From positions 1-64,000 of the forward strand of contig CAJXTU010000002.1 of assembly GCA_913060865.1 (NCBI GenBank): 64,000 nucleotides of DNA. The letters are read 5' to 3'. Below are positions 18,873 through 31,454 of the stretch, in pieces. Positions within the stretch are counted from its first letter, which is position 1; each line of letters starts with the position of its first letter. The translations under genes were made by a program, and so were the position numbers. Below the pieces are notes generated by a model. The model searched no databases. It worked only from the letters and a program-made list of their open reading frames with translations, and was not told the origin of the DNA. This stretch comes from an uncultured Cycloclasticus sp. (GTDB taxonomy: Bacteria; Pseudomonadota; Gammaproteobacteria; Methylococcales; Cycloclasticaceae).

Positions 18873-19883
18873 GTGACCCAGTCGATTATACTCCCTATTA
18901 GCTATATACAAATAGCTATTCGAGAATTGTCCAACAAAGGCATTACGCCTGAGCAAATTTTAGACGGCACCGGCCTAAACACTGATTCGTTACAAGCTGA
19001 TGACTATGTCTCATTAGAGCAATTCATTAACGTTATTCTTAACACAAGAAAACTAAGTTATAACCCTGCAATTGGCCTAGTACTGGGCTCCTTATTACAC
19101 CCCTCAACCCATGGACCCGTTGGCTGGGCCGCTATCAACAGCCCTACATTATCGGACGCCATCAACATTTTTCAGCGATACAGTCAAATACGGACACCCT
19201 TCATTTTGTATACAACACTCACTCAAGGCGACGAATATATCATCCGTCTAACACTAACCGACAATCTCAAGGCTGCCCATACTATTTTTATTGAGGCCAT
19301 GCTGATGTTATTGCAACATATTATTGAGTTTATACTCGGGAGACCAATGACAGAGGCCTGTTTATATATGAATAGTTTCACGCCAAGTTATGCCGATAGT
19401 TACCAGCAATACTTTCATTGCCCTATTCATTTCAATTCTGGACACCTCGAAATTCGCCTTCCTTTGTCATTAAAGGATACCCCGAACCCCAATGCTGACA
19501 AACACATGTACCAAATTGCACTAGAACAGTGCCAAGATGCCTATCATCAGCTACAACGCGATATAAATATTAGCACCGAAGTATATGATTACATATCAGC
19601 AAACTTAAGCTGCTCACCAACACTTGCACATACGGCTATACAATTTCGCCTTACCCCTCGCACACTCACTCGGCGACTTAAAGATCAGCAAACTTCTTTC
19701 CAAAAAATAAAAGATGATGTCTACGCATTTCAAGCCAGCAGTTATTTACGTAGAAGCGCGATATCCATAGATACTTTATCCGTTATTTTTGGTTACAGCG
19801 ACCCTGCTAATTTCAGACGAAGTTTTAAACGTTGGTTTGGACAAACACCTCAGCAATATCGACAACAACACCAAAAGCACTAA
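18873..19883 (+). CDS. AraC-family transcriptional regulator
   Basis: 336 residues from GTG 18873, which has AGAGGA four bases upstream. The reading frame extends back to a TTG at 18816, but that codon lies inside the operator palindrome. The N-terminal half is the arabinose-binding-like domain seen in OruR/ArgR-type activators. The C-terminal 100 residues hold two helix-turn-helix motifs with the AraC signature ending in FGYSDPANFRRSFKRWFGQTPQQYR. It is divergent from desaturase-like gene 2, its likely target. The inducer is unknown. Confidence 0.9.
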   Translation: MTQSIILPISYIQIAIRELSNKGITPEQILDGTGLNTDSLQADDYVSLEQFINVILNTRKLSYNPAIGLVLGSLLHPSTHGPVGWAAINSPTLSDAINIFQRYSQIRTPFILYTTLTQGDEYIIRLTLTDNLKAAHTIFIEAMLMLLQHIIEFILGRPMTEACLYMNSFTPSYADSYQQYFHCPIHFNSGHLEIRLPLSLKDTPNPNADKHMYQIALEQCQDAYHQLQRDINISTEVYDYISANLSCSPTLAHTAIQFRLTPRTLTRRLKDQQTSFQKIKDDVYAFQASSYLRRSAISIDTLSVIFGYSDPANFRRSFKRWFGQTPQQYRQQHQKH

Positions 19884-19891
19884 TAATTCGA

Positions 19892-21583
19892 TTAAATTTC
19901 TTCGTCTATTTTACCTAACCGATAGGCTAGTTGTGGGCGAGTCATCCCCAAAGCTCTTGCAGCTTTAGATAAGTTTCCTTCAGAACGTTTTACAGCCTCT
20001 TTTAATATAGTCTCTTCAATCTCAAATAAATTATTTTGTGCATCAAAGAACATCTCTACAAACTGGTTATAAACGCCCTTATTAACGGTTTTTAATTGGC
20101 CACTGTTATCAACACTTAACTCGGGCGCTTGTTCAATATTCATCATCGCAAAAAGGTGCTTAAGCTCCACCTTGCCGCCATTATCACAAAGCAGCACACC
20201 TCTTTCTATTACGTTTTCAAGCTCTCGGATGTTACCAGGCCACTGGTAAGCTTCAAGCTGGACCATTGCATGATGCGTGATACCTTTAATGTCTTTATGA
20301 TATTTAGCCTTATATTTGGCAATAAAACTGTCTGCCAACAAAGCAATGTCGCATTGCCTATCTCTTAAAGGCGGAACAACAATAGGGTAAACATTTAAAC
20401 GGTAAAATAAATCCCGTCTAAAATGATCTTTTTCAACTTTTGCAAGTAGATCTGCATGGGTAGCCGCTACCACTCGCACATCAACAGAAATAACCTTACT
20501 GCCCCCTACCCGCTCTAACTCACCTTCCTGTAGAACACGTAATAATTTCGCCTGCGCTGAATAAGACAGATCACCAATCTCATCCAAAAATAGCGTTCCA
20601 CCGTTAGCTCGTTCAAAACGACCTTCTCTAGATTGATGTGCACCTGTATAGGCACCCTTTTCAACACCAAACAACTCGGCCTCTAGTAGGTCCTCCGGTA
20701 TCGCTGCACAATTCATGGCTATAAAGGGCTTATCAGCCCGACTACTCTTCCTATGTAAAGCGCGAGCAAACAATTCTTTACCAACGCCCGTTTCACCTAA
20801 CAATAAAACCGTTACTGGGCCTTGCACCGCCTTTTCTAATAGGCCAATCGCCTCTTTAAATGGGGCGGATTCCCCAACAATGTGATCATCTTGTTTATCG
20901 TGCTCATCAAGCCATGAACGTAAACTCACCACTTCATCACGTAAGTCCAGAAATTCATCAACAATACTATTTGCCTCATAGTATTGCTTCAACTCCTCAG
21001 CATTGCCCCACTCATCTAAAGGCTTACCTACGATAATGCAATGGTCATGACCACATGCACGACACGCCTGCTCTACAAAAAGAATCGGTTGCCCAGTAAA
21101 CTCTGAACTGTAACCACTGGCATACCCCACTTCCATCCAACAAACAGGGTCCTCAGAAAGTCCAAAAGCCTTTTGATGCACCTCGCTTTCGTAAGAATTC
21201 TCCCAGCCTAATTCCATGTAAAACTTTTTGGCTTGAATATCTAGCTCAAACTGAGTGGTTGTAACACGAACAATACCTTCAAGCTGATGCAACTGAGGAC
21301 CCACTAAAAACTGATCCTTTTCACTGGCATTAGGGCGCAATTTTCTCGCCAGTTTAGCATCTTCAACACCTGCTTTATAACCGGTTCGCATAATGATGCC
21401 TTTCGCTCTATCTACACCTAATGTTTCTATCAACTCTCGCCGCATAGAACCGAGAGCTTCACTGTGTAGCAGCAACATTCGTTGCTCGCCTAACCAAATA
21501 TGCCCAGTATCGGGTGAAAATCTGATGCGTTCTTTTAAGTCATCACTAGAGGGGTACTGCTGCTGCTTAATTTTATCTACCAT
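19892..21583 (-). CDS. DmpR/MopR/XylR-type sigma-54 activator, probable phenol sensor
   Basis: 563 residues: XylR_N sensor domain (about 18-120), V4R domain with zinc site (about 125-190), linker helix, AAA+ domain (235-465) and C-terminal Fis-type helix-turn-helix (about 525-560). Walker A is GETGVGKE (263-270), the sigma-54 contact loop GAYTGA (310-315), Walker [12 protein letters not shown] (328-338). Cys148, Glu171, Cys174 and Cys182 have the exact spacing of the MopR zinc ligands. His99 and Trp127 fall where MopR binds the phenol hydroxyl. So it probably senses phenol or an alkylphenol. Likely targets include the sigma-54 promoter at 15244-15259. It converges with the AraC gene, eight bases apart. 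Confidence 0.94.
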
Positions 21584-21678
21584 TGGGCATTACAAATTAT
21601 CAAAAATAGTAACGGTAAGCCTAAACCAAAAAATTAATCATTTCATTAAATTTTAGCCTTTTTCATCATTTAATTAAG

Positions 21679-21912
21679 TCAATCAAGCCAATCATCTAAT
21701 TCCGCACCCTTCAGTTCGTTAATTGCGTAATTATTAAAGTCACGATAAACACTCCAATCGTGTATTTTTTGTGGTGCGGATGCTTTCGTCTCCTCTTCAG
21801 CCAATTGACTTTCGTATTTTTTTAGCATCCCCTCACTGTATTCATTACATTGTTGAAGAAAATCTATAATGATGGATTTCTTATCTGCTAACGATAGCGT
21901 GTTTTTAGTCAT
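21679..21912 (-). CDS. Small hypothetical protein upstream of the sigma-54 activator
   Basis: 77 residues, charged and mostly helical, ending in the acidic AELDDWLD. There is no signal peptide or membrane segment. I do not recognise a family. AGTGAG lies about seven bases before the ATG. It is on the same strand as the activator gene, 95 bases upstream of it, and divergent from the ubiX-like gene. A small regulatory or accessory subunit is possible but not shown. Confidence 0.55.
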   Translation of the reverse strand: MTKNTLSLADKKSIIIDFLQQCNEYSEGMLKKYESQLAEEETKASAPQKIHDWSVYRDFNNYAINELKGAELDDWLD

Positions 21913-21988
21913 TTGATTCTCACTTTAAGATTGACGGTGTTTTTGTTTAAGGATATGGTCAATTCCTTTTTTACAATAATAAAACACC

Positions 21989-22564
21989 ATGAAGAAAAAA
22001 ATTATTGTTGCCATCACTGGCGCAACGGGTTCTATATACGGTACCCGCTTACTTGAAATCCTGCAAACAGTTGATGACGTGGAAAGCCACCTTATTCTAT
22101 CAAGCGCAGGCGCCTTAACGGCAAAGCATGAAATCGGTATAAATAAGCAAGCCATAGAGTCTCTTGCAGATGTTGTTCATAACCCTAAAGACATTGGCGC
22201 AACTCTTTCAAGTGGTTCGTTTATTACTCACGGCATGGTCATTGCGCCTTGTTCCATGAAAACACTGGGCTCTATCGCAAACGGCATAGCCGACAACTTG
22301 GTATCACGAGCAGCCGACGTTATTTTAAAGGAGCGCCGCAAACTTATACTAATGGTGCGCGAAACACCATTAAACCTTGTTCATTTAAGAAACATGACCA
22401 CCTTATCTGAAATGGGCGCCATCATCGCGCCACCCGTCCCCGCTTTTTACACCCAACCAAAAACGATTGACGATATTGTTAATCATACTGTTGGAAGAAT
22501 ACTGGACACATTAGATATATCTAATGTAAATTATGTTAGACGCTGGCAGGGCCTTTCAAAATAA
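21989..22564 (+). CDS. UbiX-type flavin prenyltransferase (decarboxylase B subunit)
   Basis: Makes prenylated FMN from FMN and dimethylallyl phosphate, the cofactor of UbiD-type decarboxylases. 191 residues, with the FMN-binding start AITGATGSIYG and the GMVIAPCSMKTLGSIANG, RETPLNL and MGAIIAPPVPAFY blocks of the family. It opens the plus-strand operon that also carries a UbiD homologue (25211-26692) and a D subunit (26689-26922). This matches the B, C and D genes of hydroxyarylic acid decarboxylases such as VdcBCD. A housekeeping role in ubiquinone synthesis is less likely here. Confidence 0.92.
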   Translation: MKKKIIVAITGATGSIYGTRLLEILQTVDDVESHLILSSAGALTAKHEIGINKQAIESLADVVHNPKDIGATLSSGSFITHGMVIAPCSMKTLGSIANGIADNLVSRAADVILKERRKLILMVRETPLNLVHLRNMTTLSEMGAIIAPPVPAFYTQPKTIDDIVNHTVGRILDTLDISNVNYVRRWQGLSK

Positions 22565-22604
22565 TAATCACCCAGCACCTTAATTACACTGCAAAGAGGA
22601 ACTT

Positions 22605-23189
22605 ATGTTAAGCAGACGCACATTTATCAAATCCGCATTGGCCACTAACGTTGCCTTATTAGCCACCCCATCTCAAGCGCTTCAACACGTCTTAACCGGC
22701 TCCGAAGAGATACCCTTACTGGTGTTTGCTGATGAGCATTCACTCAATTCAAAGCACTTTATTTCCAATGTTGCCGAGCGTAAGTCTAATATCGATTTAG
22801 ATATTGGCCAACACTTTGAGCTACTTAGAGAATTTTGCAAAGAATCACCAAGGGGTCAAGTGTCAGGTTTAACTAGAGATTCAGATTTTTTTGCACTTGA
22901 ACAGATCGCAAAAGATTTTGGGTTTTATACCCAATATTCGGCCACCCATCATTATTCTGGAAACACGTTAACGCACGAAGTATCTAGCTCAAAAGACTCT
23001 GCAGAGCTCATTACATCATCGCTTAAAAATGCAAAGGACCAATGGCCTCAATGGCTCGCTAACCATATGCGCGTTTTACCACGAGGAAATTCACAACTCG
23101 TCACGAAAAAAACACAAATCACCTTAGCTAATACTGACCAGCATGACTTTTTAGTTTCTTGGTCTCTCAGCTCAAATAAACATATTTAA
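22605..23189 (+). CDS. Tat-exported protein of unknown function next to PchF
   Basis: 194 residues with a textbook twin-arginine signal (SRRTFIK at 3-9, hydrophobic stretch ATNVALLATP, cut after SQA near residue 25). The mature domain of about 170 residues has no motif I recognise and no Cys pair or metal motif. It lies 13 bases upstream of the p-cresol methylhydroxylase flavoprotein gene, the same neighbourhood as the unassigned pchX of Pseudomonas putida p-cresol operons. A role in export or maturation of the flavoprotein is a guess from position. Confidence 0.75.
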   Translation: MLSRRTFIKSALATNVALLATPSQALQHVLTGSEEIPLLVFADEHSLNSKHFISNVAERKSNIDLDIGQHFELLREFCKESPRGQVSGLTRDSDFFALEQIAKDFGFYTQYSATHHYSGNTLTHEVSSSKDSAELITSSLKNAKDQWPQWLANHMRVLPRGNSQLVTKKTQITLANTDQHDFLVSWSLSSNKHI

Positions 23190-23202
23190 TTCTGGAATAA
23201 AC

Positions 23203-24771
23203 ATGACTAAACCACTCCCACAAGGTATCACTTTAGGTCAGCTTAATGCGGCAGTAGCCGAGATCGAAAAAGTCGTTGGCAAAGACTATGTTTACTTAGA
23301 CGACGTAAAAGAACTACGAAGCTACCGTGACCCATACAACACAACTGACGATGCTGATTTTGCACCATCTGCGGCCGTAGCGCCTCAAAATGTTGAGCAA
23401 ATTCAAAAAATTCTAGCTATCGTCAATAATTATAAAATTCCTGTTTGGACTATTTCAACGGGTAAGAACTTTGCTTATGGTGGTCCTGCTCCGCGCAAGC
23501 CTGGTTATATTGTCCTTGATTTAAAACTCATGAATAAAATTCTTGAGGTGAATGAAAAGCATGGTTACGCCATTGTTGAACCCGGCGTGAGTTACTACGA
23601 CTTATATAACCACATTCAAGAAAAAGGTTTAAAACTTTGGATCGATTGCGCAGCACCCGCTTGGGGCGGCATTGTCGGCAACACATCCGAACATGGCGCT
23701 GGTTACACACCCTACGGTGACCACCTCTTAATGCAATGTGGTATGCAAGTCGTTCTTGCCGATGGCACCATTGTTGAAACAGGCATGGATACCACAGCAA
23801 ACAGCAAAACAGGTGGCTTGTATAAATATGGTCAAGGCGCTGCCATTGACGGTCTATTTACCCAATCTAACTTTGGTGTCATTACCCGTATGGGCATTTG
23901 GTTAATGCCTGAACCTCCTGGCTACACACCGTTTATGATTACCTTGGAAAATGAGCACGATCTTGAAACGGTGACCGATCTCTCGTTACCGCTTCGGGTC
24001 AACCAAGTTATTCATAACGCCCCGATGACGGTTGATTTACTATGGGAATCTGCGATGTCTGTTAGCCGTAGTCAATACTATACGGGTAAAGGCCCTATGC
24101 CAGATAGCCACCGCAAGAAAATGGCTAAAGATCTCGATTTGGGCATATGGAATTACTACGGCGCTGTATACGGCCCAGGCCCGATGATGAAAAATAATAT
24201 GGATGTTATCAGAGATACATTTGGTAGTATTCCAGGTGCAAAATTTCATTATGACGACACCAGAAAAGGTGACCCTGGCTGGGATTATCGCGTTAAGCTA
24301 ATGAAAGGCACCCCTAATATGACTGAATTCAGCTTACTTAACTGGATCGGTGGTGGTGGCCACATCAACTTCTCTCCTATCTCTGCTGCTGATGGCAAGT
24401 CGGCCATGAGGCAATACGAAATGATTAGGAAAAGGTCTCACGAGTATGGTTTTGATTACATTGGCGAATTTTTAATTGGCTGGAGGGATCAACATCATAT
24501 ATTTATGCTCATGTTTGACCGTATGAGCGCTGAAGAAAAGAAACGGGCACATGACTTATTTGCCATCTTAGTTGATGATGCCGCAGCCCTAGGTTATGGC
24601 GAATACCGGACACATTTATCCTTTATGGATCAAATAGCCGGCACCTTTTCTTGGAATGACAACGCGCTTTGGGATACTCATCACGCGCTAAAAGACGAAT
24701 TGGATCCAAATGGTATTCTCTCCCCTGGGAAACAGGGTATTTGGCCAAAAAACTTAAGAGGTAACTCATGA
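23203..24771 (+). CDS. pchF: p-Cresol methylhydroxylase-type flavoprotein (VAO family)
   Basis: FAD enzyme of the vanillyl-alcohol oxidase family that oxidises 4-alkylphenols via a quinone methide and passes electrons to a cytochrome c subunit. 522 residues, close to PchF (about 521). The FAD loop is STGKNFAYGG with Tyr92. The active-site pair Tyr468-Arg469 (EYRTHL) matches Tyr473-Arg474 of the Pseudomonas enzyme. His387 in GGGGHINFSP sits where VAO carries its covalent FAD. No signal peptide is visible, although such enzymes are periplasmic. It overlaps the cytochrome gene by four bases (ATGA). Confidence 0.93.
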   Translation: MTKPLPQGITLGQLNAAVAEIEKVVGKDYVYLDDVKELRSYRDPYNTTDDADFAPSAAVAPQNVEQIQKILAIVNNYKIPVWTISTGKNFAYGGPAPRKPGYIVLDLKLMNKILEVNEKHGYAIVEPGVSYYDLYNHIQEKGLKLWIDCAAPAWGGIVGNTSEHGAGYTPYGDHLLMQCGMQVVLADGTIVETGMDTTANSKTGGLYKYGQGAAIDGLFTQSNFGVITRMGIWLMPEPPGYTPFMITLENEHDLETVTDLSLPLRVNQVIHNAPMTVDLLWESAMSVSRSQYYTGKGPMPDSHRKKMAKDLDLGIWNYYGAVYGPGPMMKNNMDVIRDTFGSIPGAKFHYDDTRKGDPGWDYRVKLMKGTPNMTEFSLLNWIGGGGHINFSPISAADGKSAMRQYEMIRKRSHEYGFDYIGEFLIGWRDQHHIFMLMFDRMSAEEKKRAHDLFAILVDDAAALGYGEYRTHLSFMDQIAGTFSWNDNALWDTHHALKDELDPNGILSPGKQGIWPKNLRGNS

Positions 24772-25211
24772 ACAAGCATCTTTTAATTTTCGCCAGCCTG
24801 TTATTCCTCACTGCTTGCGAGCAACAGGCTACAGAACCCGAAACTAGTCCAGAATCATCCGCTGAAAAAGCGACTACCATGGTGCCCGAAGCATCAGCAG
24901 AGTCAACCTCAAGTTATGTACCGAGCAACCGCTCTGGGAAGGTTATTTTCGCTCTACACTGCGCTGGTTGCCATGACCCTGGTAATGCACATGCGGCAAC
25001 AAAACAACTTGCTCTGGTACGTGGCAAAGATTTAGCCGTAATCATGCAACGTAAAGACTTAGTGCCTGACTACATCAAACATATCGTTAGGGATGGTCTA
25101 CTAGAGATGCCTCCTTTCCGTCCAACGGATATTAATAATGCCGAACTGGATAATTTAGCAAACTACATTGTCGATAGCGCTAAAGCATACACACCTGAGG
25201 AAACTAAATAA
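24768..25211 (+). CDS. pchC: Lipoprotein cytochrome c subunit of p-cresol methylhydroxylase
   Basis: 147 residues. A lipoprotein signal with lipobox LTAC (Cys17) is followed by a Ser/Glu/Ala-rich linker of about 35 residues and a single-heme c-type domain with CAGCH (65-69) and probable axial Met114 in EMPPF. It would take electrons from the PchF active site. Translation is coupled to both neighbours: ATGA overlap with pchF and TAATG overlap with the decarboxylase gene. The Pseudomonas PchC is a soluble periplasmic protein, so a lipid anchor is unusual. Confidence 0.9.
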   Translation: MNKHLLIFASLLFLTACEQQATEPETSPESSAEKATTMVPEASAESTSSYVPSNRSGKVIFALHCAGCHDPGNAHAATKQLALVRGKDLAVIMQRKDLVPDYIKHIVRDGLLEMPPFRPTDINNAELDNLANYIVDSAKAYTPEETK

Positions 25212-26692
25212 TGAGTACCGATAAAAAACCCTTATCCGCCACGGCCAGAGCTGTTGGTGAACGTATTGGTAGCTTACGTGACTTTCTAGAATTTTTAGAA
25301 GAAAACGGTCAATGTATCACTTGGACCGATGAAATAATGCCTGAGCCGGACGTTCGCAATATTGCTGTTGCCGCCGGTCGTGACTCGATGAATGGCCCTG
25401 CCGTTATTTTCAATAATATTGCCGGCTACCCCGGCAAAAAATTGGTACTAGGCGTACACGGTAGTTTCACTAATTTAGCGCTCTTATTGGGCCACCCGAA
25501 AGGCACCACCATTAAGGAATTGTTTTACGACATTATTTCTCGTTGGGGTGATGATAAACCACTGCTTGATTTTATCGAGCCAGAGGCTGCACCCGTCAAC
25601 GAAAACCGTATTACTGACAATTTCAACCTTTACGACTTATTACCGCTGTATCGTATTAATGAATATGACGGTGGCTTTTACATAGGCAAAGCCAATGTTG
25701 TTAGCCGTGACCCACGGGATCCTGATAACTTCGGCAAACAAAATGTGGGTATTTATCGCATTCAGGTGCAAGCACCGGGCGAGTTCACCTTGTTGTCTAT
25801 TCCTGCTCATGATATGGGTCGTCACATCATGGCAGCCGAGCAAGAGAACGTTCCTTTAAAAATCTCTGTTATGCTTGGTAATCACCCAGCCATGTGCATG
25901 TTTGCCGCAACGCCTGTTGGCTATGAGGAGTCTGAGTTTGCTTATGCTTCACAAATGATGGGCAGCCCGCTTCGCCTGACAAAATCAGGTAACGGCATGG
26001 ACATCCTAGCCGACTCAGAAATGATTATTGAGGCCGAGCTGATGAATGGTGTACGCACACTCGAAGGGCCATTTGGTGAGTTCCCTGGCAGTTATAGCGG
26101 CGTTAGAAAAATTCCTCGTTTTAAAGTGACAGCTATTTCACATCGTAATGACCCTATCTTTGAAAATATTTATATTGGTCGAGGCTGGACCGAACACGAT
26201 ACATTAATTGGACTAAATACCTCTGCACCAATATACGCACAGCTTAAAAAAGACTTCCCAGAAGTCGTCGCTGTCAATGCCTTATACCAACATGGTCTTA
26301 CCGGTGTTATTTCCGTTAAAAATCGATTTGCTGGCTTTGCAAAATCTGTAGCGATGCGTGCCTTAGGCACTCCTCACGGCACCATGTACCTTAAAAACTT
26401 AATTATGGTAGATGATGATGTTGATCCTTTCGACCTGAATGAAGTTATGTGGGCATTATCAACACGCACTCGTGCTGATGACACTATTGTTATCCCCAAT
26501 ATGCCGTTGATTCCTATTGACCCTGCTGCAGAAGTTGCTGGTAAAGGCCATCGTTTAATTATTGATGCAACGAGCTTTATGCCACCTGATAAATTGGGTT
26601 CTGATTCAAAGATTGTTACCCCGCCAGCTGGCTCAGAAATTGATGAAATTGCCAAGGTTATTCAACTATTACAAAATGGAGGTCAGTCATGA
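25211..26692 (+). CDS. UbiD-family hydroxyarylic acid decarboxylase (C subunit)
   Basis: Prenyl-FMN-dependent non-oxidative decarboxylase of 493 residues. It has the family's GPFGEFPGSYSG block holding the catalytic Glu, and the C-terminal RADDTIVIPNMP and KLGSDSK blocks. Members such as VdcC and ShdC act on vanillate, 4-hydroxybenzoate or protocatechuate. Given the p-cresol oxidation genes around it, 4-hydroxybenzoate to phenol is the likeliest reaction. The start codon overlaps the cytochrome stop, and its own stop overlaps the D-subunit start (ATGA). Confidence 0.92.
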   Translation: MSTDKKPLSATARAVGERIGSLRDFLEFLEENGQCITWTDEIMPEPDVRNIAVAAGRDSMNGPAVIFNNIAGYPGKKLVLGVHGSFTNLALLLGHPKGTTIKELFYDIISRWGDDKPLLDFIEPEAAPVNENRITDNFNLYDLLPLYRINEYDGGFYIGKANVVSRDPRDPDNFGKQNVGIYRIQVQAPGEFTLLSIPAHDMGRHIMAAEQENVPLKISVMLGNHPAMCMFAATPVGYEESEFAYASQMMGSPLRLTKSGNGMDILADSEMIIEAELMNGVRTLEGPFGEFPGSYSGVRKIPRFKVTAISHRNDPIFENIYIGRGWTEHDTLIGLNTSAPIYAQLKKDFPEVVAVNALYQHGLTGVISVKNRFAGFAKSVAMRALGTPHGTMYLKNLIMVDDDVDPFDLNEVMWALSTRTRADDTIVIPNMPLIPIDPAAEVAGKGHRLIIDATSFMPPDKLGSDSKIVTPPAGSEIDEIAKVIQLLQNGGQS

Positions 26693-26922
26693 GTACGTGC
26701 CCACGCTGTCAATCGACAGAAGATAAGATTCGCGCCGAACATAAAGGCCTCAATGCTCAAGGTGAACTCGTTTGGACTATTTTTCATTGTAACGCCTGTG
26801 AATTTACGTGGCGTGATAGCGAACCTGCATCAACCATCGACTACAACAAACGTGAAGCCTTTTTTAGAGTAGACCCTGAAAAACCGTATCCCGTGATTAT
26901 GCCTCCGGCTCAATATAAATAG
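26689..26922 (+). CDS. Hydroxyarylic acid decarboxylase D subunit (VdcD/ShdD-like)
   Basis: 77 residues with two CXXC pairs (CPRC at 4-7, CNAC near 41-44) forming a probable zinc ribbon. Further blocks are FTWRDSEP and the C-terminal FRVDPEKPYPVIMPP, which match the small D subunits of B-C-D type decarboxylases. Its precise role is not settled but it is needed for activity of several such enzymes. Its presence marks this as a catabolic decarboxylase and not ubiquinone biosynthesis. Confidence 0.9.
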   Translation: MSTCPRCQSTEDKIRAEHKGLNAQGELVWTIFHCNACEFTWRDSEPASTIDYNKREAFFRVDPEKPYPVIMPPAQYK

Positions 26923-26933
26923 GTTTATAGATC

Positions 26934-28370
26934 ATGAAAAATATTATAGAAAACCTTGGCGCTTTATTAGGCGCTGATAACGTCATTAGCCTGTCAAACA
27001 AACCAGCAGAATATCAATTTCTACCAGACCGTATTAACAACGCCGATCGTGAAGTTATTGCAGTCGTTACACCCAGTAATCTTGATGAGCTGCAAAAGCT
27101 ACTCGTGTCCTCAACCGACAAAAGCTATTCACTTTTCAACTTATTAAGCCCTGGAGAAATTAACACGGCTCCAATTCCTGAAAAGGGTCCCATTGTTGTA
27201 ATTGATCTTAAAAAATTAAACAGCATTATTGAAGTAAACACCAAAGCGGCTTACGCACTTATTGAGCCTGGCGTGAGCTATGCTCAACTAAACCAATACC
27301 TAGAAACAAACAACATTCCCTTTATCGTTGATTTCGACAAAAACTCAACCCAGTCAGTTTCAGGCGGCATCAGTAATAGAAGTTATGGCTATACACCGTA
27401 TGGCGACCACCTCATGATGCAGTGTGGAATGGAAGTCATGCTTGCTAGCGGTCGCTTAATACGCACCGGTATGGGTGCGATGCCAGATAGTGAATCATGG
27501 CAGTTATTTAAATATGGTTTTGGTCCTTATGTTGATGGTACCTTTACTCAATCTAGCTTAGGTATTATTACTAAAGTAGGCATTTGGCTTATGCCCAAAG
27601 CTCCAGCTTATAAACCGTTTGCACTTCAACTACCCAATGAAGCAGCAATGAATCAAGCTGTTGAAATTATGCGTGGCATGAAAATCAATATGCTCGTTCC
27701 TAATACCGTTACTGTTGCCTCTGCACAATCAGATGCGCTGCAATTTTCTAATGATAAACTAGAAAAAGTTGGCAATAATGATGAAGCCGCTAAAAAGCAC
27801 CAGTTAGGTACCTGGAATATGTATGGCGCTTTATATAACATGCCCGCTAATGTTGATTTCTTATGGCAAGCCATTAACAGCGCATTCGGCCAAATTGAAG
27901 GGGTTAAATTTTTAACTCAAGAAGCCACTGCGAGTAATCCTGTCTGGGCTCAGCGTGAAATGAAAATGGATGGAAAGTTTAACGCTATTAATCCACACCT
28001 AGCCGGCTATTCATCCATTAATGTGCACTTTGCCAGCCCAATAGACGGTGAAGATGCCGTCAAGATGGATGAGCTACTGCAAAAAGTCAGTAACCCAGCT
28101 GAGCTAAACATCATTAGCCAATTTGCTCTTACTTGGCGCACCATGATGAATCAACTACAAATTCTATATCCTACGGGTAATGCTGAAAAGCTAACCCAAG
28201 CTCGTCAACTCGCGAAACAGCTTATCGACGATTTTTCAGCCCAGGGTTACCCTACCTGCCTAGTCGACGCGGATATGCAAGAAGCCGTTGATGCCGTCAG
28301 CCTAGACGGACTAAAAACGCTAAAAAAACGTGTTAAGAAAGCACTCGACCCGCAGTCTGTCTTTGGTTAA
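26934..28370 (+). CDS. Degenerate PchF-like flavoprotein paralogue
   Basis: 478 residues, clearly homologous to the PchF at 23203-24771. Shared blocks include GYTPYGDHLMMQCGMEV, FTQSSLGIITKVGIWLMP and LGTWNMYGALY. The catalytic features are lost. The FAD loop STGKNFAYGG has become LLSPGEINTAP with no Tyr92 equivalent, and the EYRTHL pair reads YPTCLV. The protein is 44 residues shorter. The frame is open, with a good position 11 bases after the D subunit, so it is a maintained gene. It may be a non-catalytic partner subunit of an unequal heterodimer, or have a new substrate. Confidence 0.85.
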   Translation: MKNIIENLGALLGADNVISLSNKPAEYQFLPDRINNADREVIAVVTPSNLDELQKLLVSSTDKSYSLFNLLSPGEINTAPIPEKGPIVVIDLKKLNSIIEVNTKAAYALIEPGVSYAQLNQYLETNNIPFIVDFDKNSTQSVSGGISNRSYGYTPYGDHLMMQCGMEVMLASGRLIRTGMGAMPDSESWQLFKYGFGPYVDGTFTQSSLGIITKVGIWLMPKAPAYKPFALQLPNEAAMNQAVEIMRGMKINMLVPNTVTVASAQSDALQFSNDKLEKVGNNDEAAKKHQLGTWNMYGALYNMPANVDFLWQAINSAFGQIEGVKFLTQEATASNPVWAQREMKMDGKFNAINPHLAGYSSINVHFASPIDGEDAVKMDELLQKVSNPAELNIISQFALTWRTMMNQLQILYPTGNAEKLTQARQLAKQLIDDFSAQGYPTCLVDADMQEAVDAVSLDGLKTLKKRVKKALDPQSVFG

Positions 28371-28390
28371 TAGCTTATAGCAAAGGTCAT

Positions 28391-28434
28391 CGCTGAATAA
28401 TTTGGTAAAACTCCTTTCACTTGATTATTCAGCG
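28391..28434 (+). repeat. Long inverted repeat before the aldehyde dehydrogenase genes
   Basis: CGCTGAATAAT (28391-28401) and ATTATTCAGCG (28424-28434) form a perfect 11-bp inverted repeat with a 22-base loop, between the PchF paralogue and the first aldehyde dehydrogenase. No T tract follows. It may be an mRNA processing or stability hairpin, or a regulator site. Confidence 0.5.
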
Positions 28435-28508
28435 TACTTCCACCCCCTAGCAAGCAATTTTTTTATGTTAATAACCCTCTTTCAACCCTTAAATATTAGG
28501 TATTTCTT

Positions 28509-29954
28509 ATGATTAAAACCTACGACCTTTGGATCAATGGCACGCAAACAAAACCCAGCAGTGGAAAATACTTTGATGTGCTTAACCCCTTAGATGACAG
28601 CCTTTTTTGTAAAGCTGCTGAATCTAATGAAGCAGATATCAATAAAGCCGTTGATGCGGCACATGCTTGCTTTAAAAGCTACCGCAAGTGTTTAGCAAAA
28701 GACCGTGAAGCCATGCTTATGAAAGCAGCCGACTTACTCGAAAGAGATCGTGACGAGTTTCTAGAGTTACTCATCGATGAAGTCGGCTCACCCATGAACA
28801 AAGCACAGTTCGAAGTCAGTCAAACGATTGGCCAGCTACGTGCAGCGGCGGGTACCGCTCGTCGCATTACTGGGCAAACCATGCCGTCAGACACCCCTGG
28901 GCGTTTAAGCATGAGCGTGCGTAAACCATTAGGTGTTGTCGCTGCTATTACACCGTTTAACGTACCCTTATTAAAAGCGGCAAAATTAGTCGCCTCACCT
29001 TTAGCAACCGGCAATACTGTTGTTTTGCTAACATCAGAAGAGGCACCTGCTGTCTCCTTCCGTTTCGCTAAACTGATGGAAGAAGCAGGCTTTCCAGCCG
29101 GTAGTTTAAATGTAGTGTCTGGCTTTGGTGTTGATGTCGGTGATTTCCTTACCGGCCACTCGCTAGTGAAAGCAGTTATGTTCACAGGCTCCAGTGTTGT
29201 TGGTAAACACATTAGCGAAATTTGTGGCCGAAATATGAAACCTTGCGTGCTTGAGCTCGGTGGCAAAAGCCCTTATATCGTGTTGGCTGATGCGGACCTT
29301 GGCCTCGCTGTACAAAACGCCATTATGGGGATGTTTTTCTATCAAGGACAAGCCTGTATTGCGTCCAGCCGTATTATTGTTGAAGCGCCTATCTACGATC
29401 AATTTATTGAAATGTATAGCGCCGCAGCAAAACAATTATCAATGGGAGACCTACATGATATGTCGACTATTTTAGGCCCTATCATTTCACCCCGCCAACG
29501 TAACCGAGTGCGCTCGCATATTGAAGATGCTGTCGCAAAAGGTGCAACGCTCGTTACCGGTGGTGAATGGGAAGGCAATCGTTGTCAGCCGACCATTCTA
29601 ACTAACGTCACCGACGAAATGACCGTCTGTCGTCAAGAAACATTTGGGCCAGTTACCTCTATTTATTCTGTAGAGAGCGCCGAGGAAGCGCTAGAGCTCG
29701 CAAATGATACACATTACGGACTGAGTGGTGCTATTCACACCAACGACCTCAACAAAGCGTTAACGCTCGCTCACGAGGTTGAAACCGGCATGATACATAT
29801 CAATGCACCAAGTGTTTACGATGAGCCTCACGTACCTTTTGGTGGTATTGGCGATAGTGGCTTCGGGCGTGAAGGCGTTGATATAGATATTGACGCATTA
29901 ACACAGTGGAAATGGATCACGATTCAATTACCCGGCTACGATCAAGCACACTAG
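28509..29954 (+). CDS. NAD(P)-dependent aldehyde dehydrogenase 1
   Basis: 481 residues, the usual length of the class. Catalytic Cys283 is in GQACIASSR and general base Glu249 in LELGGKSP. Asn151 (ITPFN) and FTGSSVVGKHI complete the cofactor and active site. It is related to benzaldehyde, vanillin and salicylaldehyde dehydrogenases. In the operon it would oxidise 4-hydroxybenzaldehyde from the methylhydroxylase to 4-hydroxybenzoate. A second, very similar gene follows 54 bases later. Confidence 0.93.
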   Translation: MIKTYDLWINGTQTKPSSGKYFDVLNPLDDSLFCKAAESNEADINKAVDAAHACFKSYRKCLAKDREAMLMKAADLLERDRDEFLELLIDEVGSPMNKAQFEVSQTIGQLRAAAGTARRITGQTMPSDTPGRLSMSVRKPLGVVAAITPFNVPLLKAAKLVASPLATGNTVVLLTSEEAPAVSFRFAKLMEEAGFPAGSLNVVSGFGVDVGDFLTGHSLVKAVMFTGSSVVGKHISEICGRNMKPCVLELGGKSPYIVLADADLGLAVQNAIMGMFFYQGQACIASSRIIVEAPIYDQFIEMYSAAAKQLSMGDLHDMSTILGPIISPRQRNRVRSHIEDAVAKGATLVTGGEWEGNRCQPTILTNVTDEMTVCRQETFGPVTSIYSVESAEEALELANDTHYGLSGAIHTNDLNKALTLAHEVETGMIHINAPSVYDEPHVPFGGIGDSGFGREGVDIDIDALTQWKWITIQLPGYDQAH

Positions 29955-30008: not shown

Positions 30009-31454
30009 ATGACAACTAAACATGAATTATGGATAAATGGTGAACACACTCAACCAGACAGCGGGAAATATTTTAATGTTTTAAACCCACTCGATGATTC
30101 CGTATACTGCCAAGCGGCCGAATCAAATGATGCCGACATCAACAAAGCCGTTGAAGCCGCACATAATTGCTTTAAAACCTACAGTAAAACATTAGCAAAA
30201 GATATCGAGGCAATGCTATGTAAAGCCGCTGACTTAATGGAAAGAGATCGCGCCGAATTTGCTGATATTCTGATTGATGAAATCGGCTCTCCGATGAATA
30301 AGGCAAACTTTGAAATCCAATATGCTATTACTCATTTACGTGCTGCTGCAGGCGTAGCACGCCGAGTAACGGGGCAAACTATGCCATCGGACACACCGGG
30401 CCGTATTAGCATGAGTGTACGTAAACCCTTAGGCGTCGTCGCTGCGATCACACCGTTTAACGTGCCATTAATTAAAGCGGCAAAATTAGTCGCCTCACCC
30501 TTAGCAACTGGCAACACTGTTGTACTTCTTCCATCAGAAGAAGCACCAACACTGTCTTTCCGCTTTGCTCAACTATTACATGAGGCCGGTTTCCCTGCTG
30601 GTTCTGTCAATGTTGTATCAGGTTTTGGTGTTGATGTTGGCGATACATTAAATAGCCACCCATTAGTTAAAACCGTTATGTTCACTGGCTCTAGCCGTGT
30701 TGGTAAACACATTGGTGAAATTTGCGGCAAACAAATGAAACATGCCGTTTTAGAGTTGGGCGGCAAAAGCCCTCTAGTTATTTTAAAAGATGCAGACCTA
30801 GAGCTGGCAGTCAAAACGGCTGTTTTTGGCATGTTCCTATACCAAGGACAAGCCTGTATGGCATCAAGCCGTATCATCGTTGAAGAAGGTATCTATGATC
30901 AATTCATAGCGGCTTATAAGGCTGCCGCTGGCCAACTATCAATGGGCGATTTACGTGAGATGTCTACCATTCTTGGCCCTATTATTTCTCAACGTCAACG
31001 TGACCGTGTCCGCAGGCATATCGAGAATGCGGTAAGCAATGGTGCAACCATTGAAACTGGTGGTAACTGGCATGCTCATGTATGTGAACCGACTATTCTT
31101 ACCGGCATCACAAAAGAGATGGATGTGTGCTACGAAGAAACCTTTGGCCCAGTCACCTCTGTCTACTCAGTTAAAGATTATGACGCGGCACTTGAAATGG
31201 CGAACGACACGCCTTACGGCTTAAGCTCAGCCATTATCACTAACGACTTAAACAAAGCCTTAGATTTTGCAGAAAACATTGATGCAGGGATGGTTCATAT
31301 CAATGCCCCTACTTTATATGATGAGCCACATGTTCCTTTTGGTGGCACAGGTGATAGTGGTTTTGGACGAGAAGGTATCGAAGTAGATGTCGATGCGTTA
31401 ACTGAATGGAAGTGGATTACCATTCAACTGCCTAACGCAGACGCTGGGCACTAA
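30009..31454 (+). CDS. NAD(P)-dependent aldehyde dehydrogenase 2
   Basis: 481 residues, colinear without gaps with copy 1 and identical in most blocks (SDTPGRISMSVRKPLGVVAA, GQACMASSRIIVEE), so a tandem duplicate. Cys283 and Glu249 are kept, so it should be active. Differences cluster between residues 50-120 and 255-275, which could alter the substrate pocket or subunit contacts. It may serve a different aldehyde, for example one from the hydroxylase-like proteins of the island. It ends the operon: a terminator follows 22 bases after the stop. Confidence 0.93.
   Translation: MTTKHELWINGEHTQPDSGKYFNVLNPLDDSVYCQAAESNDADINKAVEAAHNCFKTYSKTLAKDIEAMLCKAADLMERDRAEFADILIDEIGSPMNKANFEIQYAITHLRAAAGVARRVTGQTMPSDTPGRISMSVRKPLGVVAAITPFNVPLIKAAKLVASPLATGNTVVLLPSEEAPTLSFRFAQLLHEAGFPAGSVNVVSGFGVDVGDTLNSHPLVKTVMFTGSSRVGKHIGEICGKQMKHAVLELGGKSPLVILKDADLELAVKTAVFGMFLYQGQACMASSRIIVEEGIYDQFIAAYKAAAGQLSMGDLREMSTILGPIISQRQRDRVRRHIENAVSNGATIETGGNWHAHVCEPTILTGITKEMDVCYEETFGPVTSVYSVKDYDAALEMANDTPYGLSSAIITNDLNKALDFAENIDAGMVHINAPTLYDEPHVPFGGTGDSGFGREGIEVDVDALTEWKWITIQLPNADAGH

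Follow-up and report, generated by a model that had tools for sequence, protein, structure and literature searches.

The window analysed here is a stretch of 64,000 nucleotides from an uncultured Cycloclasticus sp. (contig CAJXTU010000002.1), a member of a marine genus known for the degradation of oil aromatics. It carries two homologues of the VAO/PCMH flavoproteins, PchF1 and PchF2, in one operon with a cytochrome c gene. The features are listed below; partnered PchF1s are those that occur together with a PchF2.

19892..21583, minus strand: divergent XylR_N/V4R sigma-54 activator of the phenol type, MobR/DmpR-like (domain/family search)
21989..22564, plus strand: UbiX/VdcB-type flavin prenyltransferase (family search)
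22605..23189, plus strand: small protein with a twin-arginine (SRRTFIK) signal, a likely export partner
23203..24771, plus strand: PchF1, catalytic VAD-like flavoprotein that keeps Tyr92 and Tyr468-Arg469, with a predicted His387-linked FAD
23746..23889, plus strand: PchF1 residues 182-229, with conserved residues lost in all or most partnered PchF1s (E182Q, R192E/D, W204, Q205, F207Y, K229)
24768..25211, plus strand: cytochrome c, putative electron acceptor subunit, with a lipoprotein-type signal read by eye
25211..26692, plus strand: UbiD-family decarboxylase VdcC, above the NCBIfam cut-off
26689..26922, plus strand: VdcD-like small protein of 77 aa, named by resemblance and operon position
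26934..28370, plus strand: PchF2, 478-aa flavoprotein homologue of the VAO/PCMH fold (profile matches, alignments, AlphaFold2, Foldseek)
27141..27173, plus strand: PchF2 loop LLSPGEINTAP (residues 70-80), a degenerate form of the FAD pyrophosphate loop (alignments)
27384..27608, plus strand: PchF2 residues 151-225, retaining 37 of 39 positions that are conserved in the family (among them E167, R177, W189, Q190, F192)
28257..28262, plus strand: Cys442-Leu443 of PchF2 in place of the catalytic Tyr-Arg (PCMH Tyr473-Arg474, PchF1 Tyr468-Arg469; alignments)
28509..29954, plus strand: aldehyde dehydrogenase 1 (ALDH1)
30009..31454, plus strand: aldehyde dehydrogenase 2 (ALDH2), approximately 74% identical to ALDH1 by cross-hits

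The PchF2 reading frame is open from its ATG and uninterrupted. Using phmmer, we detected homology over its whole length, residues 5-476 matching PCMH (1DII) with E=2e-81 and VAD, EUGO and VAO matching with E values of about 1e-76 to 1e-66. Pfam recognised FAD_binding_4 only, and the C-terminal domain of PchF1 went unrecognised. The AlphaFold2 monomer (pLDDT 87.6, pTM 0.86) is confidently predicted to fold as a VAO-type subunit; the top PDB matches of the model in Foldseek were 1dii (PCMH; E=5e-41, TMq 0.85) and 8s7p (VAD), and eugenol oxidase was matched as well. A low-confidence loop at residues 182-196 was considered as a sign of an interface; since the model of PchF1 is equally low in confidence there, it was discounted as non-specific.

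Residue losses were read from an alignment of PchF2 with PCMH (1DII), VAD (8S7P), other flavoproteins and the PchF1 of the window, whose numbering is used unless PCMH is named. Tyr92 of PchF1 (PCMH Tyr95) lies opposite a gap in PchF2, and the SxGxN loop ahead of it reads L71-P73-E75 instead. The FAD loop SxGxNxxYG as a whole (PCMH S88, G90, N92, Y95 and G96) is absent from all 15 PchF2 orthologues examined, and so is the catalytic, phenolate-binding Tyr-Tyr-Arg set (PCMH Y95, Y473, R474), a coincidence in 15/15 sequences that is more than chance. Both types of covalent FAD anchor are also gone, the His387 position being occupied by Ser361 and the Tyr384-type position by Ala357. Further substitutions are Glu375 to Asn353, Glu422 to Gln396, His431 to Met405 and Asn160 to Gly145 (PCMH Glu380, Glu427, His436 and Asn164, of which Glu427 is retained in some distant orthologues), and PchF2 has no C-terminal tail. 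The lost loop and anchors suggest that PchF2 holds no bound FAD. The original prediction of a paralogue with an intact frame that had lost Tyr92 and Tyr468-Arg469 was therefore confirmed by alignment and extends to every orthologue examined, and a search of the alignment for a Tyr or Arg substituting for the lost set in place found none in PchF2.

Judged by its related loci, the window belongs in or beside Cycloclasticus. Orthologues of PchF2 were identified in 12 Cycloclasticus genomes (59-89% identity) and, outside this genus, in five gammaproteobacteria (L014-L017 and G137; approximately 34-43% identity). Among the 18 genomes of the window's genus and family, PchF2 occurs in 12, all 12 of which also encode PchF1; five of the other six have neither gene, and one, a fragmentary assembly, matches only in part, where a contig ends. 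A sample of approximately 770 genomes from the class and phylum added G137 alone to the known cases, and the pair is thus rare yet scattered. No homologues were found on viral contigs, and plasmid matches were, judged by identity alone, flavoproteins of less than 40% identity. An in-frame TGA suspected in the G137 gene proved to be its ordinary stop codon.

PchF2 lies 3′ of an intact PchF1 gene and a cytochrome c gene, and the order PchF1-cytC-(UbiD-VdcD)-PchF2 holds, within contig limits, in 13/13 loci, with the cytochrome gene between the two flavoprotein genes in every locus that covers that stretch. L017 and G137 retain PchF1, cytochrome and PchF2 and have no UbiD or VdcD, which ties PchF2 to the flavocytochrome rather than to the decarboxylase. 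In maximum-likelihood trees, support was 100/100 for a clade of the PchF2 orthologues and 100/99 for a separate clade of the partnered PchF1s. Each clade contains the same main lineages, namely Cycloclasticus, L014/L016 with L015, and L017 with G137, which indicates a single origin of the pair followed by joint inheritance. The branches of PchF2 are long in these trees, which limits how precisely its origin within the VAO/PCMH family can be placed. Pairwise dN/dS, for pairs with unsaturated dS, was 0.04-0.09 for PchF2, which is therefore not decaying, and approximately 0.02-0.03 for most PchF1 pairs. The gene pair and the purifying selection that the original prediction had proposed to look for are thus both present, and the decay in close relatives that would speak against it was sought and not found, dN/dS being low and frames intact. 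Shared losses, low dN/dS and the invariant linkage to PchF1 and cytochrome together support its central claim of a maintained, catalytically dead pseudo-subunit.

Separately, the region from the regulator to the start of UbiD (19803-25300) is mostly 94-100% identical to locus L005, against approximately 60-90% in the flanks; between the regulator and UbiX, identity falls to 80-88% over two steps of 250 bases. Between the window and L005, dS is 0.006 for PchF1 and 0.85 for PchF2, so that recent recombination probably replaced PchF1 and left PchF2 in place.

We compared the losses of the two proteins over the 129 positions at which at least 90% of 20 flavoproteins lacking a PchF2 agree. Of these positions, 53 were lost in PchF2 and 12 in the partnered PchF1s, and none was lost in both (Fisher p=0.0014); the result is no longer significant when each lineage is represented by a single sequence (p=0.21), and some other settings give p=0.13-0.14. 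The regional form of the pattern is more robust. In the segment corresponding to PchF1 166-240, which was picked after the data had been seen, PchF2 lost 2 of 39 conserved positions versus 51 of 90 elsewhere (p=1e-8), and PchF1 lost 8 of 39 versus 4 of 90 (p=0.007); with one sequence per lineage, clustering in PchF1 falls to p=0.066 and the regional result for PchF2 still stands at 1e-7. PCMH Glu186 is replaced by Gln, and Arg196 by Glu or Asp, in 12/12 partnered PchF1s, and both residues are retained in 15/15 PchF2s, and in 20/20 flavoproteins without PchF2, among them the nearest unpartnered PchF1 relatives (G279 and G373; 60% identity). Trp208 and Gln209 (PCMH numbering) are likewise lost in 12/12 partnered PchF1s and kept in 15/15 PchF2s. 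That PchF1 changed just where PchF2 is conserved suggests, at the level of sequence, that the proteins work only as a mixed pair. The changes in PchF1 may also reflect a single ancestral event of other cause, such as a new interface with the cytochrome.

The position of this segment can be related to published work on the dimer. In VAO and EUGO the substrate path follows the dimer interface, with portal residues Asp192, Met195 and Glu464 of VAO (PCMH Glu177, Met180 and Asp434) and interface-path residues Tyr244, Tyr249, Arg300 and Met303 of VAO (PMC5646868; PMC5089669). VAO Asp192 and Met195 fall just N-terminal of the changed positions of the segment; placed by literature and numbering rather than by coordinates, portal and path residues together appear to bracket the swapped positions. 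PchF2 retains the FAD-domain side of the portal as Asp158 and Met161, in 14 of 15 orthologues, and has lost the cap-domain side (Thr403 and Met405). Such a half-kept portal fits a PchF2 that would still build the interface with no active site of its own.

PchF1 is 54% identical to the VAD of Marinicaulis and 41% identical to PCMH, and its closest PDB relative is 8s7p. In place of the Tyr384-type anchor of PCMH proper it has Leu379, and His387 occupies the VAO/VAD-type position; the N5-contacting Pro152, of the dehydrogenase type, is present, and Ala stands where VAD has a flavin-contacting Asp. VAD oxidises vanillyl and 4-hydroxybenzyl alcohol and is inactive on p-cresol (PMC7617285). The operon had been called a p-cresol operon, a designation that is probably wrong, because PchF1 is nearest to vanillyl-alcohol dehydrogenase, carries the His anchor and is encoded with vanillate-decarboxylase-type genes (VdcB/C/D-like) and two aldehyde dehydrogenases. 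The gene content points to a likely route from alcohol via aldehyde and acid to phenol or guaiacol, which would correct the probable pathway of an aromatic-degradation operon common in Cycloclasticus genomes. Phenol-hydroxylase domains were found in four genes of the genome, at two places.

Several observations concern the remaining neighbours. L010 and L011 have a single aldehyde dehydrogenase, about equally distant from ALDH1 and ALDH2 of the window. Between PchF2 and ALDH1 (28370-28509), a perfect 11-base inverted repeat, CGCTGAATAAT / ATTATTCAGCG, was noticed by eye, with no T run. A scan for sigma-54 promoters gave 46 matches versus 40 expected, none of them convincing. Upstream of the operon in L014, L015 and L016, ORFs of approximately 400 and 250 aa resemble, by eye, subunits of ring-hydroxylating dioxygenases.

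Immediately upstream of the gene for the signal-less flavoprotein, 57 of the 62 flavocytochrome loci encode a small Tat-signal protein, with the cytochrome gene sometimes intervening; 11 other such Tat-signal ORFs occur in the approximately 1.1 Mb of the same loci (L005-L081). The copy in the window (22605-23189) matched no Pfam or NCBIfam family. As judged from gene order and signals, this protein may escort the flavoprotein during Tat export, which would supply a missing step in the transport of PCMH to the periplasm. L014 and L016 have no separate upstream Tat-signal gene, and their own PchF1s carry a Tat signal (L014:6086-7735 and L016:6055-7710); the idea of an export partner is supported by this self-signalling where the separate gene is missing. 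PchF2 is signal-less in these two loci too, and no signal peptide was seen on any PchF2 orthologue.

From the losses and their conservation, the linkage, the purifying selection, the reciprocal pattern and the predicted monomer fold, we propose that PchF2 is a structural pseudo-enzyme subunit that pairs obligately with PchF1 in a heterodimer with bound cytochrome c, the only FAD being that of PchF1; we put the probability of this reading at roughly 0.6. PchF1, cytochrome c and PchF2 would be made from one operon, and PchF2 would stand in for one flavoprotein chain of the two that normally form a VAO/PCMH dimer. PchF1 alone would bind FAD, linked through His, oxidise a para-substituted phenol of the plant or oil type and pass the electrons to cytochrome c, and PchF2 would contribute to the substrate funnel. 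The copy of the segment in PchF1 would serve the dead subunit only and has drifted, and the reversal of charge from Arg to Glu/Asp may favour the heterodimer over a PchF1 homodimer. A more specific version is tentative and, on our estimate, has the odds against it: the chains would have lost complementary halves, PchF2 its FAD binding and catalysis and PchF1 its dimer-side segment, with PchF2 supplying that segment in trans for the dimer interface and the substrate gate of PchF1, and the charge reversal enforcing heterodimer formation.

The original prediction had allowed that PchF2 might "hold, export or regulate" the active subunit; this can now be made more specific, a heterodimer partner being the favoured role and a cytoplasmic chaperone of maturation or proofreading its main rival. 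Such a chaperone would mimic the dimer partner, hold PchF1 until FAD is attached, release it for Tat export and be absent from the final enzyme. The lack of a signal peptide on every PchF2, even in L014 and L016 where PchF1 has a Tat signal, agrees with this, as do the position of the gene after those of the cytoplasmic decarboxylase and a precedent in PCMH for FAD attachment that is tied to a partner protein (Kim 1995, as described in a citing paper). However, signal-less flavoproteins are generally exported in the VAO/PCMH family, related flavoproteins, including the nearest relatives of PchF1, manage without a PchF2, and PchF1 has drifted in the very segment that PchF2 conserves, a pattern that suggests a permanent partner and not a transient one. 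We therefore regard the chaperone as unlikely, if still the strongest competitor to the heterodimer.

Strong purifying selection and an intact fold would equally suit a protein that had acquired a separate function, for instance binding of a phenolic ligand or FAD-free catalysis, and an enzyme with a new activity had been suggested for this gene. This suggestion found no support: the residues conserved specifically in PchF2 are mostly hydrophobic or small, the charged ones being only E342 and D51, no cluster of new catalytic-type residues is present, and PchF2 is invariably tied to PchF1 and cytochrome, so that we consider it improbable. A new catalytic site was rejected because the PchF2-specific polar residues do not cluster. 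Rather less probable again is that PchF2 belongs to the lineage of the alpha-prime subunit PcmJ of Geobacter, the arrangement being then already known. G. metallireducens does have both PcmI and PcmJ with a cytochrome, but PcmJ (39% similarity to BpfA) is about as close to BpfA as PcmI is (41%) and hence not strongly degenerate, whereas PchF2 has approximately 30% similarity to intact members (PMC12724174 for PcmI and PcmJ). A decaying duplicate that hitchhikes in the operon has almost nothing left in its favour: PchF2 does evolve faster than the PchF1 of the same operon, but its dN/dS, its intact frame in all complete copies and the same losses across distant gammaproteobacteria led us to reject decay.

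If the heterodimer is real, it is a well-defined case of a homodimeric redox enzyme that has been divided between a catalytic chain and a structural, dead one, and the sequences of both chains show what each has lost. With only one of two active sites left, it would also provide a test of whether the VAO/PCMH dimer is needed for substrate entry, a proposal that came from simulation and crystallography.

Among known systems, the PCMH of Pseudomonas putida (PchF/PchC, 1DII) likewise combines a signal-less flavoprotein with a cytochrome c, and PchF2 has the same predicted fold (Foldseek TM 0.85); unlike the pair in the window, it is an alpha2beta2 enzyme with two identical FAD-bearing flavoproteins linked via Tyr384. 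The VAD of Marinicaulis flavus (PDB 8S7N-8S7W) shares the His anchor and the N5-contacting Pro with PchF1, differs in its flavin-contacting Asp, and is not known to have a dead partner. The VdcBCD-type non-oxidative hydroxyarylic acid decarboxylases are represented in the operon by the UbiX, UbiD (VdcC) and VdcD-like genes, which are pathway neighbours only, given that the pair occurs without them in L017 and G137. The unequal flavoprotein subunits that had been mentioned for G. metallireducens are a real precedent, PcmI and PcmJ (PMC12724174), so that the kind of arrangement is already known. As in the window, two unequal flavoprotein genes and a c-type cytochrome gene lie in one cluster. The enzyme, reportedly described by Johannes and co-workers in 2008, is said to be an alpha-alpha'-beta2 complex with FAD on alpha only, and we know of no reciprocal loss described for it. 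Strong degeneration is apparently absent from PcmJ, in contrast to PchF2 with its loss of the FAD loop, the anchor, the catalytic residues and the C-terminal tail; this degree of degeneration in the second chain, with a matching change in the active one, was not described in the literature searched, which comprised papers outside subscription. The active subunit of the window is also VAD-like, with a predicted His-linked FAD, unlike that of Geobacter. By analogy, we infer an arrangement akin to the unequal-subunit enzyme of Geobacter but more extreme.
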